NCBI RefSeq assembly: GCF_000153305.1
Contig: NZ_CH724107.1
Location: forward strand, 1,829,764 to 1,882,338
DNA length: 52,575 nucleotides
From: Oceanicola granulosus HTCC2516
GTDB taxonomy: Bacteria > Pseudomonadota > Alphaproteobacteria > Rhodobacterales > Rhodobacteraceae
Direction: 5' to 3'
The notes below the pieces were generated by a model. That model was not told the origin of the DNA, ran no database searches, and saw nothing but the letters and a program-made list of their open reading frames with translations. The position numbers and the translations under genes are program-made. Each line of letters starts with the position of its first letter. The first letter of the stretch is position 1. This document shows positions 1 to 40,332 of this stretch, piece after piece.

Positions 1-1042
1 CCCCGCGTCCAATCCCGACCGCCTCGCGCACGCTGCCGAACCCGTCCCGCGCCAGAAGCCGGTCCAGCCCCTCGGCGATCCGCCCGGCCAGCCCCAGGCC
101 CTCGTAGACCAGCGCCGAGTACAACTGCACCGCCGACGCGCCGGCGCGGACCTTGGCGTAGGCGTCCTCCGCCGAGCCGATCCCGCCGACCCCGATCAAC
201 GGCAGGTCGCTCAGCATCGACAGCCGCGCCAGCACCCGCGTCGAGCGCTCGAACAGCGGCCGCCCCGACAGCCCCCCGGCCTCGCCGGCATGGCGGCTCG
301 CCAGCCCGTCGCGCGCCAGCGTCGTGTTGGTCGCGATCAGCCCCGCGAGCCGCGCCTCGCCCGCCACCTCCGCGACGTCGGCCAGCGCGGCGTCGTCGAG
401 GTCGGGCGCGATCTTGAGCAGGATCGGCAGCGGCCGCGCCAGCGCCGCGTTGGCCTCGCCCACCCGCGCCAGCAGCGCCGCCAGCGCCGCGCGGCCCTGC
501 AGGTCGCGCAGCCGCTCGGTGTTGGGCGAGGAGACGTTGACCGTCGCGAAGTCGGCATGCGGGCCGCAGCGGGTCAGCACGGCGGCATAGTCGGCGGCAC
601 GGTCCGCGCTGTCCTTGTTGGCGCCGAGGTTGATCCCCACGCGCTGCGCCGGCCGCCGCGCCAGCCGCGCGCCGATCGCCTCCATGCCGTCGTTGTTGAA
701 GCCGAAGCGGTTGATGACGGCCCGGTCCTCCGTCAGCCGGAACAGCCGCGGCTTCGGGTTGCCCGGCTGCGGCCGCGGCGTGATCGCGCCGACCTCGAGG
801 AAGCCGAAGCCCGAGCGGGCGGCGAGCGGGCCGAGCGCGGTGGAGTTCTTGTCGAAGCCCGCCGCGAGCCCCACGGGATTGGGCAGGTCGAGCCCGAACA
901 GCGTCGTCGCCAGCCGCTCCGACGTCGGCGGCGCGGCGCGCGGCACCAGCCCGGCCACCAGCGCCGCGAGCGCCAGCCGGTGGGCGCGCTCCGGGTCCGT
1001 CCGGTGCAGCAGCGCCAGCCCGGCGCGCTCGATCAGGCTCAT
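1..1042 (-). CDS. pyrD: Dihydroorotate dehydrogenase (quinone), class 2; C-terminus cut by window edge
   Basis: Oxidises dihydroorotate to orotate in pyrimidine synthesis, with FMN as cofactor and membrane quinone as acceptor. The ATG at 1042 opens a frame that runs without a stop to base 1, about 347 residues, so only a short C-terminal piece is missing. Visible signatures are the N-terminal helical stretch typical of membrane-associated class 2 enzymes, NRFGFNNDG, and NVSSPNT with the serine that serves as catalytic base in class 2. FMN-phosphate-binding glycines follow in [11 protein letters not shown]. The start overlaps the end of the DUF952 gene by ATGA (1039-1042), so the two are probably translationally coupled. 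Confidence 0.95.
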
Positions 1043-1524: not shown

Positions 1525-3084
1525 ATGATCGCTCGAATCCTCACCTCCACCTGCGTGCTGGCCCTCAGCGCCGGCGCGGCGGCGGCCGACTTCAACCTCA
1601 CCATCCTGCACACCAACGACTTCCACGACCGCTACGAGCCGATCTCGGCCTACGACTCGACCTGCGCGGCCGAGGACAACGAGGCCGGCGAGTGCTTCGG
1701 CGGCGCGGCGCGGCTCGCCACCGCCATCGAAGAGGCGCGCGGGCGCAACGAGAACACGCTCCTCGTGGACGGCGGCGACCAGTTCCAGGGCACGCTGTTC
1801 TACACCTACTACAAGGGCGAGATGACGGCCGAGTTCATGAACAGGCTCGGCTACGACGCGATGACCGTGGGCAACCACGAGTTCGACGACGGCCCCGAGG
1901 TGCTGCGCAGCTTCATCGAGAACGTCGAGTTCCCGGTGCTGATGTCCAACGCCGACGTCAGCCAGGAGCCGCTGCTGGCGGACGCGATCCGGAAGTCGAC
2001 CGTGATCGAGGTCGGCGGCGAGAAGATCGGCCTGATCGGCCTGACGCCCGAGGACACCCACGAGCTCGCCTCGCCCGGGCCGAACGTGATCTTCACCGAA
2101 CCCGCCGACGCCGTGCAGGCCGAGGTCGACCGGATGACCGAAGAGGGCATCGACAAGATCGTCGTGCTGTCGCACTCGGGCTACGGCGTGGACCAGCAGG
2201 TGGCCGAGAACACCACCGGCGTCGACGTCATCGTCGGCGGCCACTCCAACACGCTGCTCGGCGACATGGAGGGGGCCGAGGGGTCCTACCCGACCATGGT
2301 CGGCGACACCGCCATCGTGCAGGCCTACGCCTACGGCAAGTTCCTCGGCGAGCTGAACGTCACCTTCGACGACGAGGGCAAGGTCATCGAGGCCTCCGGC
2401 GCACCGCTCATCATGGACGCCTCCGTCGCCGAGGACGAGGAGTCGGTGGCGCGCATCGCCGAGCTGGCCGAGCCGCTCGACGAGATCCGCAACGAGGTGG
2501 TCGCCGAGGCCGCCGCGCCGATCGAGGGCAACCGCGACGTCTGCCGCGCGATGGAGTGCGAGATGGGCAACCTCGTCGCCGACGCCATGCTCGACCGCGT
2601 CGCCGACCAGGGCGTGCAGATCGCCATCGCCAATTCCGGCGGCCTGCGCGCCTCGATCGACGAAGGCGAGATCACGATGGGCGAAGTGCTCACCGTGCTG
2701 CCGTTCCAGAACACGCTGTCGACCTTCGAGGTCTCCGGACAGACGGTGATCGACGCGCTCGAGAACGGCGTCAGCCAGATCGAGGAAGGCGCCGGCCGCT
2801 TCCCGCAGGTGGCGGGCATGTCCTTCACCTTCGACGCCTCCGCCGAGCCCGGCAGCCGCGTGTCGGACGTGATGGTCGGCGGCGAGCCGATCGATCCCGA
2901 GGCGACCTACATGGCCGTCTCGAACAACTACGTGCGCAACGGCGGCGACGGCTACTCGATGTTCACCGACGCGGCGAACGCCTACGATTTTGGCCCCGAC
3001 CTCGCCGACGTCACGGCCGAGTACCTGGCGCAGAACACGCCCTACCAGCCCTACACCGACGGGCGCATCTCCGCCGCCGAGTAA
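1525..3084 (+). CDS. Secreted 5'-nucleotidase / UshA-family metallophosphatase
   Basis: A 519-residue exported hydrolase expected to dephosphorylate nucleotides in the periplasm. Residues 1-21 form a signal peptide ending ...GAAAADF. The N-terminal calcineurin-like metallophosphatase domain carries the metal ligands: HTNDFH (D32, H34), GGDQFQG, GNHEFDDG, a His in VVLSHSG and the closing GGHSN. The C-terminal nucleotide-binding domain shows NSGGLR, TVLPFQNTL and NGGDGYSMF. Two nearby cysteine pairs (STCAAEDNEAGEC and CRAMEC) may form disulfides. The gene stands alone with its own likely promoter, and a large inverted repeat follows it. Substrate could be a nucleotide, a 2',3'-cyclic nucleotide or a nucleotide sugar; sequence alone does not decide. 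Confidence 0.9.
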   Translation: MIARILTSTCVLALSAGAAAADFNLTILHTNDFHDRYEPISAYDSTCAAEDNEAGECFGGAARLATAIEEARGRNENTLLVDGGDQFQGTLFYTYYKGEMTAEFMNRLGYDAMTVGNHEFDDGPEVLRSFIENVEFPVLMSNADVSQEPLLADAIRKSTVIEVGGEKIGLIGLTPEDTHELASPGPNVIFTEPADAVQAEVDRMTEEGIDKIVVLSHSGYGVDQQVAENTTGVDVIVGGHSNTLLGDMEGAEGSYPTMVGDTAIVQAYAYGKFLGELNVTFDDEGKVIEASGAPLIMDASVAEDEESVARIAELAEPLDEIRNEVVAEAAAPIEGNRDVCRAMECEMGNLVADAMLDRVADQGVQIAIANSGGLRASIDEGEITMGEVLTVLPFQNTLSTFEVSGQTVIDALENGVSQIEEGAGRFPQVAGMSFTFDASAEPGSRVSDVMVGGEPIDPEATYMAVSNNYVRNGGDGYSMFTDAANAYDFGPDLADVTAEYLAQNTPYQPYTDGRISAAE

Positions 3085-36500: not shown

Positions 36501-37706
36501 TCAGGCGCGGCGCGCGCGCGTCAGCGCGACGGCGGCGATGGCGAGCGTGAGGCTTCCGCCGAGGACGAAGACGATGCCGGTGGAGGTCGCCGCCGCGATG
36601 GCGGCACCGAGGAACGGCGCGGTGACGAGGGCGGCGGTGTTGGCCGCTTCGCCGAGCGCGGTGACGCGGGCGATGCTTTCGGGGGCGGTCTCGTTCTGGA
36701 TCACCACGCGCGGCGGGATCATCAGCGCCGCCGAGGCCACGCCGCCGAGGGCGAAGGCCAGCAGCATCGGCGCCAGCGGGAACGGCACCCCGAAGACCTG
36801 CGCCAGCCCCGGCAGGATCAGCACCGGCCCCGCCACCAGCCCGCCGAGCCCCATGAGGCGGAACGGCGCCCCGGTCCGGCGGGCCAGCCACAGCGCGCCG
36901 GCGACCCCGCCCACGCCGAACGCCGCCATCGCCCAGCCCAGCGCCGCCGCCGGGTGGCCGAGGTCGCGGATCAGCGCCGCGAGGAGGGTGTCGTAGAGGA
37001 ACGTGGCGAAGAAGCTCGCCGCCGTCAGCCCCAGCGCCAGCCGCAGCGGCGGCGAGCGCCGCACCAGCCGCAGCCCCGCCGCGATGTCGGCGCGCAGGGC
37101 CGGGCGCGGCCCCTCGAGCGGCGCCTGTCCGAGGGGCGGCAGCGTCATCAGGATGAGGGCGGCGAGGCCGGAGATGGCGGCGTTGACGACGAACACGCCA
37201 CCCGGCGCGAGCCACCCCAGCAGCACCGCGCCCAGCGCCGGGGCGACGATCTTGCTCGACTGGTTGACCGCGTGGCTGACGCTGTTGGCCGCCAGCCGGT
37301 CGGGCTCGGCGACGAGGCGCTGCAGGGCCGCCTGCTTGGCCGGGGTGAAGAAGGTGTCGACGGACTGGCCGAGCGCCAGCAGCGCCACGAGCGTCACCCA
37401 GTCGCCGGCGAGCGTCATCGACAGGTAGACGAGCCCGCGCCCGAGGTTGGCCCCGACCAGCACCGCGCGCACCGGCAGCCGGTCGACGAGGGCGCCGGCG
37501 AGCAGGCCGATCGTGAGGTAGGGCAGCCCCAGCGCGACGGCGAACCACGCGAAGGCGATGGTCGGAGCCTCCCACTGGAAGGCGATCAGCGTCATCATCG
37601 CGACGTAGGAGAGCCAGTCGGCGAAGTCGGCCGGCACCTGCCCGGCGAGCAGGCGCGCGAACTGGCGGTTGCGGCGCAGCAGGCCGCGCGAAGCGGGCGC
37701 GGTCAT
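36501..37706 (-). CDS. MFS transporter of the EntS-like group
   Basis: A 401-residue transporter with about twelve membrane segments and no cleaved signal. The N-terminal part ([27 protein letters not shown]) and the loop [20 protein letters not shown] with its D-R-x-x-R-A pattern resemble the enterobactin exporter group and related drug exporters. Substrate is unknown. It begins inside the acpS stop (ATGA) and lies between acpS and lepB, which are adjacent in many relatives, so it looks like an added gene in the cluster. Confidence 0.87.
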
Positions 37707-38116
37707 GAGGAGGGCGAGGCTTTCGGCCGCGCCTCGATCACCACGAAGGCCTGCGCCCAGGGGTGGTCGTCGGTCAGGGTGACGTGGATCACCGCCTCGC
37801 AGCCCGCGGGCGTCATCGCCGCGAGCCGCTCCTTCGCCCAGCCGGTGACATGCATGACGGGCTGGCCCGAGGCGAGGTTGGTGACGGACATGTCCTTCCA
37901 GGCGATGCCCATGCGCAGGCCGGTGCCGAGCGCCTTGGAGCAGGCCTCCTTGGCGGCCCAGCGCTTGGCGTAGGTGCCGGCGACGTCGGCGCGGCGCTCG
38001 GCCTTGGCCTGCTCGATGTCGGTGAAGACACGGTTGCGGAAGCGGTCGCCGAAGCGCGCCAGCGTCGCCTCGATCCGCTCGATGTTGGCGAGGTCCGTGC
38101 CGATGCCGAGGATCAT
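37703..38116 (-). CDS. acpS: Holo-[acyl-carrier-protein] synthase
   Basis: Transfers phosphopantetheine to the fatty-acid carrier protein. 137 residues with the two family motifs: [13 protein letters not shown] at the N-terminus, with metal-binding Asp, and [18 protein letters not shown] in the middle, with metal-binding Glu. Part of the pdxJ-acpS-lepB-rnc block on this strand. Confidence 0.96.
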
Positions 38117-38126
38117 TGGCGGCGGC

Positions 38127-38594
38127 TCAGTAGTCGGGGGTGAGCGCGGCGCCGACCTGGCCGGTCGCCTGGTTGATCGTCACGGAGAGCCACATGGGCG
38201 TCTCCCGGCCGTCGGCGTCGGGCACGGCGGCGGGGAGCTGGAGGCGCAGGCCGACGGCGGGATCGTACTCGGCGGTGACCCCCTCGAGCGACAGGCCGTA
38301 GAAGCCGCGCGTGCCCTCCCAGCTCACGACGCGGCAGGTGCGGCCGCCGACGAGGTCGTAGGGCGGGGCGAGCACCAGCAGGTGGAACGGGACCATCGCC
38401 GGCTCGATCGTGTCGAGCAGGGCGATGCGCACCTCGCCGTTGGCGAAGGTCATCGTGTGCGCCTCCCACGGCTCGGGGATCGCATCGGCGCGGGCGCGCC
38501 AGTCGCACTCGCCGACCGACTGGGCGGCGAGCGGCAGCGGCAGGGCGAGGCAGGCGGCGAGCGCGGCGGGGCGGAGCATCTGGATCGGCGTCAT
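38127..38594 (-). CDS. Exported protein of unknown function
   Basis: A 155-residue protein with a cleavable signal ([25 protein letters not shown]); the start at 38594 is preferred since the longer frame hides this signal. The mature chain has two cysteines (GECDW and GRTCRVV) that could form a disulfide and a beta-rich pattern. No family recognised. It lies 10 bp before acpS in the same direction and is downstream of the terminator of the chaplin-like gene. Confidence 0.72.
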
Positions 38595-38682
38595 CGGGCG
38601 GTCCTCCTGCGGTTGCCCCTGTCTCGCAGAAGCTGGCGGGCCCGCCAAGGCTTCGGTGCGGATCCTCGCGCCGGACACGGAA

Positions 38683-38709
38683 CAGGCGCCCGGTGGGACC
38701 GGGCGCCTG
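38683..38709 (-). terminator. Terminator-like hairpin of the chaplin-like gene
   Basis: CAGGCGCCCGG (38683-38693), a 5-base loop and CCGGGCGCCTG (38699-38709) form a perfect 11-bp stem 33 bp after the stop codon. In the minus direction TTCC follows, a poor U-tract, so efficiency is uncertain. Confidence 0.7.
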
Positions 38710-38742: not shown

Positions 38743-39366
38743 TCAGTCGTCCGTCTCGTCCTCGGCCTCGTCCTCGACCTCGTCGGCGGCGTCTTCCGCC
38801 TCGTCCTCGGCGGCGTCCGCTGCGTCCTCGGCCGCGTCCTCGGCGTCCTCGGCGGCGTCTTCCGCTTCGCCGGTCATGGCGTCGTCATCCATGGCCGCAC
38901 CGGAGAGGCCGTTCTCGGCCGCCTGCTCCTGGGAGATCTCGCAGACGGTTTCGTCGGTGCCCTGGAAGTCCTGGGCGATGACGTTGGCTTCGACGCCGCA
39001 GACGTTGGCGGCCACGCCGATCGGCGCCTGGACCGTGTTGCCGTCGACCGAGAGGTTCACCAGGCCGTTCTGCTGGCCGTTGCCGCCGGCGTTGTCACCG
39101 TTGCCGCCGTTGCCGGTGTTGATGCCGTTCTGGGCGGCGGTGCTCTGGTCGATCTCGCAGGCGGTCTCCTCGGAGCCGACAAACTGCTCGGTCAGCACGT
39201 TGACGTCGACGTCGCAGACGTTGGCGGCGACGCTGACGGGGACCTGCACCGTGTTGTCGTCGACCGACACGTTGACCAGGCCCTCCTGGTCCTGGGCAAG
39301 CGCCCCGGTGGCGAACAGGCCGAGGGCGGCGGTGGCGGCGAAGAGGCTCTTGGACTTCGTGAACAT
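38743..39366 (-). CDS. Secreted protein with two chaplin-like domains and acidic tail
   Basis: A 207-residue exported protein. The start at 39366 has a strong Shine-Dalgarno (GGAGGAAGGA). Residues 1-24 are a signal peptide (…ATGALAQ). Two similar domains follow, about 29-72 and 101-144, each with the pattern GLVN-SVDxNTVQ-P-VAANVC…NV… and a C-x18-C pair (C51/C70 and C123/C142). This resembles Streptomyces chaplins, where VQVPVxVPVNVCG and C-x17-C are typical. The linker (about 80-100) is Gly/Asn-rich. Residues 160-207 are almost only Ala, Glu and Asp. Chaplins form surface-active amyloid coats; an equivalent role here is inference. Sits between pdxJ and acpS with its own terminator. Confidence 0.82.
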   Translation of the reverse strand: MFTKSKSLFAATAALGLFATGALAQDQEGLVNVSVDDNTVQVPVSVAANVCDVDVNVLTEQFVGSEETACEIDQSTAAQNGINTGNGGNGDNAGGNGQQNGLVNLSVDGNTVQAPIGVAANVCGVEANVIAQDFQGTDETVCEISQEQAAENGLSGAAMDDDAMTGEAEDAAEDAEDAAEDAADAAEDEAEDAADEVEDEAEDETDD

Positions 39367-39591
39367 GGTATTCCTTCCTCCGATATGCTCGGACCTGGCC
39401 GACGGACGGTGCCGCTCCGGCCGGTCTCTGGAGGGCTGAACAGACGGCGCGGCGCGGTGTTCCCGCCCCTGTGCGCACCGGCTGGCGGAGCATGGAATAT
39501 CGTGCGGACTTCTGCTCACCTGCAGGCGAAAAGTCGCAAATCTTGCCTCTTCCGCCGGCCCGGCGGCACTCGTGAACGGGGCGCGGCGGAA

Positions 39592-40332
39592 CTATTGCCG
39601 CGCGGCGTCCATGCGGCGGCGCATCTCGTGGATGGCGGGGCCGAGGCCGAGGAAGATTGCCTCGCCGACCAGGAAGTGGCCGATGTTGAGCTCGCGCAGC
39701 TCGGGGATGGCGGCGACGGGGGCGACGGTGTCGTAGGTCAGGCCGTGGCCGGCATGGACCTCGAGGCCGAGGCTGTCGGCGAGGCGGGCCATGTCGACGA
39801 GGCGGGCGAGCTCCTCGTCGCGCTCGTCGAAGCGGCCCTCGGCGTGAAGATCGCAGTAGCGGCCGGTGTGCAGCTCCACCACCGCCGCGCCGATGCGGTG
39901 GGCGGCCTCGATCTGCGGGCGGTCGGCGGCGATGAAGATCGAGACCCGGCAGCCCGCGTCGGCGAGCGGGGCGATGAACTGGGTCAGCCGGTTCTGGTCG
40001 CGCGCGACCTCGAGGCCGCCCTCGGTGGTGCGCTCCTCGCGCCGCTCGGGCACGATGCAGACCGCGTGCGGGCGGTGGCGCAGGGCGATGGCCTGCATCT
40101 CGGGCGTGGCGGCCATCTCGAAGTTGAGCGGCAGGGTCAGCGCCTCCATGAGCGCGTCGATATCGCGGTCGGAGATGTGGCGGCGGTCTTCGCGCAGGTG
40201 CGCGGTGATGCCGTCGGCGCCGGCCTCCTCGGCGAGCCGGGCGGCCCGGACCGGGTCGGGATAGGCCGAGCCGCGGGCGTTGCGCACCGTCGCCACGTGA
40301 TCGATGTTCACGCCCAGCCTCAGCTTTTCCAT
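39592..40332 (-). CDS. pdxJ: Pyridoxine 5'-phosphate synthase
   Basis: Final ring-closing enzyme of the DXP-dependent vitamin B6 pathway. 246 residues with [18 protein letters not shown] at the N-terminus, [16 protein letters not shown] and [17 protein letters not shown], each part of the TIM-barrel active site, and a C-terminal [16 protein letters not shown] phosphate-binding stretch. The 225-bp gap downstream separates it from the chaplin-like gene. Confidence 0.97.

Follow-up and report, generated by a model that had tools for sequence, protein, structure and literature searches.

Chaplin-like domains in a rare family of secreted alphaproteobacterial proteins

Chaplins coat the spores of Streptomyces, and amyloid fibrils and surface activity are among their hallmarks. 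Reviews (PMC7766987, PMC13251363) define the chaplin domain as a hydrophobic one with a pair of cysteines and three GN motifs, the latter spaced 12–13 residues apart (PMC13251363). The latter source denies the chaplin name to a protein that has two conserved cysteines but no GN motifs around them. Mature short chaplins have GRAVY values of 0.163–0.600 (PMC3079736), and a review of actinobacterial genomes describes chaplins from actinobacteria only and suggests horizontal gain (PMC4255298). In the literature searched, which included PMC3079736, PMC13251363, PMC4255298, PMC7582709, and PMC7766987, we found no report of a chaplin in Alphaproteobacteria or in Proteobacteria as a whole.

We analyzed a 52,575-nucleotide stretch of DNA from Oceanicola granulosus HTCC2516 (the window), which contains a gene, P0001, whose product resembles the long chaplins ChpA-C of Streptomyces. 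Shared with these proteins are a signal peptide, two domains of ~40 residues with a linker between them, a GN-x-VQVP-NVC core, and two in-register cysteines. P0001 differs from ChpA-C in carrying an acidic tail where no sortase signal was seen, in having lost most GN motifs and the NPAFGN end, and in its Gram-negative host, where no short chaplin or rodlin was recognized nearby. The short chaplins ChpD-H have the same core and cysteine register as P0001. The features of the locus, in window coordinates, are as follows.

38743..39366, minus strand: gene P0001, encoding a secreted two-domain protein of 207 aa (stop codon included in the coordinates); from the ORF translation, the PF03777 score of 28.2 bits, and relatives in Halovulum and Wenxinia
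39295..39366, minus strand: predicted signal peptide, residues 1–24; by eye, from ALA before QD (compare AFA and SYA before QD in relatives)
39139..39282, minus strand: chaplin-like domain 1, residues 29–76, with Cys51 and Cys70; 18.2 bits alone, below the cut-off of 21
39067..39138, minus strand: linker region including a Gly/Asn stretch, residues 77–100
38923..39066, minus strand: chaplin-like domain 2, residues 101–148, with Cys123 and Cys142; 27.0 bits alone, above the cut-off, with one in-register GN motif
38746..38892, minus strand: acidic tail, residues 159–207, with a predicted helix at 161–201; from composition, periodicity, and AF2
39367..39381, minus strand: ribosome-binding site GGAGGAAGG and spacer AATACC ahead of the ATG
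38683..38709, strand not assigned: perfect 12-bp hairpin with a 3-nt loop and no T-run, 33 nt past the stop codon

The P0001 gene is real: a chance ORF is ruled out, as Halovulum and Wenxinia have kept the reading frame together with its two domains. A first-pass annotation of the locus, made from the sequence alone, had proposed a signal peptide and a very strong ribosome-binding site. Both are seen, the first as MFTKSKSLFAATAALGLFATGALA by inspection of the translation and the second as GGAGGAAGGAATACC, a strong site, before the ATG on the coding strand, with six bases between GGAGGAAGG and the start codon. Translation also bore out the two repeated domains, which begin at residues 29 and 101, and the Gly/Asn-rich linker (GINTGNGGNGDNAGGNGQQN) that joins them. 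The DNA encoding the domains forms a 168-nt direct repeat with copies that are 75% identical. The perfect hairpin said to lie behind the gene exists as a 12-bp repeat; its 10-bp version is found a single time in the window and never in 100 shuffles. The hairpin lacks a T-run, a terminator scan found nothing, and the 106-nt stretch that bears it has a slight folding advantage over its shuffles (z −1.87), 7 of 200 of which fold equally well.

The gene is flanked by pdxJ (39592–40332) and by a small hypothetical gene followed by acpS (37703–38116), all on one strand; we assigned the names pdxJ and acpS by reading translations. When 23 pdxJ loci (our own and 22 from relatives, with 1.5-kb flanks) were compared, the P0001 gene was found only at its own locus (E ≤ 0.01), and acpS was seen next to pdxJ at 20 of the 22 loci from relatives. 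The small hypothetical protein before acpS (38127–38678, minus strand) has no Pfam match, and its relatives occur at 3 of the 22 other pdxJ loci (L095, L097, and L106). No partner gene was recognized beside P0001. Composition gave no clear sign of recent foreign DNA, as GC3 was 0.942 compared to 0.960–0.980 in seven neighboring genes.

Searching P0001 with the Pfam chaplin profile, the check put forward in the first-pass annotation, came out in favor of the chaplin relation, as did the reverse search for real chaplins described below. PF03777 (ChpA-C) matched two stretches with a total of 28.2 bits (E = 1.7e-6), above its cut-off of 21, and was the sole Pfam family to exceed its own cut-off in this protein. 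Part of the strength of this whole-protein score comes from the repeat. The profile scored 28.6 bits in the two-domain relative from Halovulum and 33.4 bits in that from Wenxinia, where the best stretch spans profile positions 20–55 of 57; the strong match in P0001 is short (24–44 of 57). Automatic annotation may already give the Wenxinia protein the Pfam name. In a six-frame search of its own genome, one P0001 stretch reached 17.0 bits (E = 0.02) and the other 15.1 bits (E = 0.09), and unrelated frames reached this single-stretch level in 14 of 384 other genomes of the class. The same profile yielded no further chaplin-like proteins in the class: 15 of 385 genomes had matches at E ≤ 0.05, none above the cut-off, and the frames in the 14 genomes other than our own were unrelated by eye, such as a TrpB containing SPGVLHGN. 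Other Pfam matches also fell below their cut-offs (DUF7055, E = 0.013, and DUF4426, E = 0.071, for P0001; DUF6689, E = 0.0018, for the Halovulum protein), and NCBIfam contained nothing close to any cut-off.

For the reverse search, we took reference chaplins from Streptomyces and Embleya plasmids; a chaplin peptide query found 21 records, of which six (~10 Mb) were used. Profile A2, which consists of seven alphaproteobacterial domain rows and no actinobacterial row, matched 21 times at E ≤ 10 over these six Streptomycetaceae plasmid records, with a best E of 8.4e-5. All 21 fell inside PF03777 matches (coordinates compared by eye); there were 25 of the latter, and A2 failed to recover 4. Since the six records were picked because they hold chaplins, the point of this search is the absence of any other match. 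Over 385 genomes of the class, A2 matched only the genome of origin at E ≤ 0.001.

We also compared the two groups profile to profile. Leaving out 4 of the 25 PF03777 matches, one with an internal stop codon and three that looked degenerate (all four above the Pfam cut-off), gave 21 chaplin domains, 20 of them distinct. Aligning six alphaproteobacterial domains with these 20 using hhalign gave a probability of 94.2 and a score of 36.6 over 35 columns at 34% identity, with both cysteines aligned, and none of 500 column shuffles reached this score (best 19.7). With P0003 and P0005 added, the probability was 91.3 and the score 32.5 (0 of 500 shuffles as high); with L117 and L118 added as well, the values were 86.4 and 29.6 (0 of 300). 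A profile made solely from the four members that singly fail PF03777 still aligned in register, at 32% and a score of 21.2, compared to 16.1 for the best of 300 shuffles. A local HMM built from these 20 domains gave 32.7, 33.7, and 38.3 bits for the three two-domain proteins and at most 4.3 bits for the single-domain proteins; the best of 7000 shuffled proteins reached 11.9 bits. That the shuffled proteins stayed so far below the two-domain proteins, and that none of the 500 column shuffles reached the alignment score, rules out the Pfam match as an artefact of composition.

The alignment with chaplin domains places both cysteines in register. The first cysteine comes 14 positions after the GN column in each of the 20 chaplin and eight alphaproteobacterial domains. 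The distance between cysteines is 18 in 19 of the 20 chaplin stretches, the twentieth stopping short of its second cysteine, and is 18 in four and 19 in four of the eight alphaproteobacterial domains. In P0001, 18 residues separate Cys51 from Cys70 and Cys123 from Cys142, the number given in the first-pass annotation; the cysteines are thus 19 apart, versus 18 in chaplins, and the register is the same. In the single-domain relative P0007 they are 20 apart (counted by eye). By these sequence comparisons, the resemblance of the P0001 domains to chaplins exceeds chance. Because PF03777 scores above its cut-off in three genera, every reverse match fell on a chaplin, shuffles all scored lower, and a profile of members that fail PF03777 still aligns in register, we consider the domains to be probable, if remote, homologs of chaplins.

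The two-domain relatives, from Halovulum marinum (L001) and Wenxinia marina (L002), are 57% and 58% identical to P0001. They contain the same two domains and differ from P0001 in lacking the A/E/D tail and in their linkers and gene neighborhoods. Domain 1 is 71–73% alike across the three proteins, while domains 1 and 2 within one protein are 62–67% alike. As domain 1 is more alike between genera than the two domains are within a protein, the comparison suggests a duplication that came before these genera diverged; domain 2 of P0001 and Wenxinia, at 65%, is an exception to this pattern. Among the flanks that were read by eye, the neighbors differ, with a Lon protease next to the Halovulum gene and a transporter ATPase next to that of Wenxinia, and none of them looked like a partner gene common to these loci. 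A protein with Gly/Asp-rich repeats of a calcium-binding type, RTX-like by eye, is encoded near the Halovulum relative (L001, 6330–8387, minus strand).

Few genomes matched in any search, indicating that the P0001 gene is rare and scattered. Over 394 genomes of its family, P0001 matched four: its own, Wenxinia, G170, which encodes a single-domain relative, and G331, which matched the tail only. The G331 sequence (L006, 1450–1800, plus strand) is a secreted-looking, A/E/N-rich repeat protein that is tail-like and has no such domains. P0003 matched five of 248 family genomes (its own, Wenxinia, G170, and two read as noise), and profile A3 matched four of 289 class genomes (its own and three read as noise). 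Profile A5 (eight rows) matched five of 244 genomes of the order: its own, Wenxinia, G880, which encodes the single-domain P0006, G291, which encodes the single-domain P0007 with a long acidic tail, and G299, judged to be noise. In P0007 (L118, 1069–1809, minus strand), a tail of ~130 residues rich in D, A, T, and G follows the domain, and thus acidic tails exist elsewhere in the family. The other four genomes of the genus had no match to the P0001 gene at E ≤ 0.01. Plasmids carried no relative of P0001 at E ≤ 1 and none of P0002, P0005, or P0006 at E ≤ 0.1, and weak matches in L028, L029, L035–L037, and L119 were dismissed after reading.

The single-domain relatives P0003, P0005, and P0006 parallel the short chaplins ChpD-H in domain number. 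The core GRAVY values of P0003 and P0005 (0.47 and 0.39) are within the range of the 20 chaplin domains (0.24–1.04). These relatives differ from ChpD-H in scoring below the PF03777 cut-off and in lacking both GN motifs and the NPAFGN end.

In P0001, one of the six GN positions is kept, with none in domain 1 and one in domain 2. The GRAVY values of its domains (0.28 and 0.33) lie inside the range reported for mature short chaplins, and that of the whole mature protein (−0.47) lies below it. The pI is about 4. The cores of the two-domain proteins have net charges of −4 to −6, compared to 0 to −2 in the 20 chaplin domains, and their mean aggregation scores are low (−0.09 to 0.07, versus −0.04 to 0.36 in chaplins). 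The reported A/E/D tail is present: A, E, and D make up 39 of the 42 C-terminal residues, the charge of the tail is about −28, and its self-identity is highest at lag 11 (0.55), followed by lag 7 (0.50) and lag 4 (0.47). Sortase signals contain an LPXTG motif; we saw no sortase signal at the C terminus by eye and no LPXTG-like sequence, the tail being almost entirely A, E, and D.

AF2 modeled the full protein at a pLDDT of 43, and the only confident part was a stretch of the tail helix. With domain 2 alone, one of five models was confident (pLDDT 83.9) and the other four were at 46–48. The confident model is a mixed alpha/beta fold, in which two strands flank DG and helices follow; a chaplin domain would be all-beta. 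Its nearest Foldseek neighbors are mostly BTB domains (E = 0.27 in the PDB and 0.095 in BFVD, with none at E ≤ 0.001). We take the BTB resemblance to be an artefact, as the matches are insignificant and BTB is absent from the Pfam scan of P0001. Queries with a chaplin core and with profile A2 identified no solved structure that was convincingly related by sequence.

P0001 scores above the PF03777 cut-off, contains two cysteines per domain, and has a signal peptide by eye; it lacks the three GN motifs, and the sortase signal of long chaplins was not seen. Since a defining feature of chaplins was looked for and found missing, we file P0001 as chaplin-related rather than as a chaplin. The earlier description of a tandem chaplin overstates the case: the profile relation and cysteine register hold, but most GN motifs are missing, the NPAFGN end is absent, and the cores are acidic. 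The tail may bind Ca2+ or keep the chains soluble, as first suggested, though both closest relatives have no such tail.

Our best reading is that P0001 belongs to a rare family of secreted, disulfide-paired domains that are related to chaplins and may self-associate at the cell surface. P0001 would be exported by Sec, after which a disulfide probably closes between the two cysteines of each domain. Each domain would be a remote homolog of the actinobacterial chaplin core, with two predicted beta strands around D-G-N (LVNVSV-DGN-TVQVPI), then NVC, and then the partner cysteine 18 or 19 positions on. In what we see as the most likely way of working, the hairpins would let molecules stack, either on the cell surface or within the extracellular matrix, and the acidic helical tail could keep the chains separated until its charge is screened by salt, Ca2+, or low pH. 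We put forward this full scheme, from export to charge switch, as tentative. That P0001 forms a surface amyloid seems rather unlikely. Several points count against the full scheme: only one of six GN motifs is kept, NPAFGN is missing, the cores are acidic, the aggregation score is low, the mature GRAVY is −0.47, single PF03777 stretches are weak, and the P0007 cysteines are 20 apart. In addition, divergent relatives lower the profile match from 94 to 86% and reach 32% on their own, the single-domain proteins score at most 4.3 bits with the local HMM, the sole confident domain model is mixed alpha/beta, and no partner gene was recognized. We regard as quite improbable the most chaplin-like version, a functional amyloid in which a charge-switched acidic tail replaces the sortase anchor, keeping the protein soluble in the periplasm until cations trigger assembly at the outer surface or a water surface. 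If true, no earlier chaplin system would be known from a Gram-negative cell or from any bacterium other than Actinobacteria, as far as the literature searched shows.

One alternative keeps the chaplin ancestry and assigns the domains another job, as small, soluble, disulfide-closed units of the periplasm or medium, for example in a binding or stress protein, that form no amyloid. The acidic domains and tail (pI about 4), the loss of GN and NPAFGN, the scattered gene, and the one AF2 model that is confident as a compact domain (pLDDT 83.9) fit such a role; the other four models (pLDDT 46–48), nearest folds that are insignificant BTB matches (E = 0.27 and 0.095), and the lack of a visible functional partner do not, leaving it a serious possibility that stops short of being probable. 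Convergence, in which an unrelated alphaproteobacterial secreted domain acquired the GN-x-VQVP-x5-NVC pattern by chance, could account for the shortness of the strong PF03777 match (24–44 of 57), the failure of each divergent relative to pass PF03777, and the weakening of the profile match as these relatives are added. We find it unlikely, as both cysteines are in register, 21 of 21 reverse matches fell on chaplins, and 0 of 500 and 0 of 300 shuffles reached the alignment scores. A further alternative gives the main function to the acidic tail, which as a charged helix would bind cations or water while the two domains anchor it. The helix-like periodicity of the tail (strongest at lag 11), the predicted helix at 161–201, the other long acidic, low-complexity tail in P0007, and the secreted A/E/N-rich protein without domains in G331 are consistent with this idea, but both closest relatives retain the pair of domains and have no such tail. 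As this makes the domains the conserved part, we consider a tail-centered function very doubtful.

If P0001 and its relatives are chaplin-related secreted domains, as we favor, a related domain in Gram-negative bacteria, single or doubled and in some cases joined to an acidic tail, would serve as an outgroup for the chaplin core and bear on its origin. Naturally acidic versions of the domain might remain in solution for the time that structural studies need.

Searches of IMG/VR with A2 and A3 gave one contig, which has a single-domain member; P0001 and P0006 had no match there. This member, P0005, lies 1.4 kb from a terminase-like ORF on contig L032 (the pair at 1–357, plus strand, and 1725–2210, minus strand). 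By eye, the ORF looks like a phage terminase small subunit; the contig may be a prophage edge, or the gene a phage-borne copy. A second IMG/VR contig, of 153 kb, encodes a stretch (L039, 2001–2129, plus strand) that is 77% identical to the chaplin peptide query, which would put a chaplin on DNA classified as viral.
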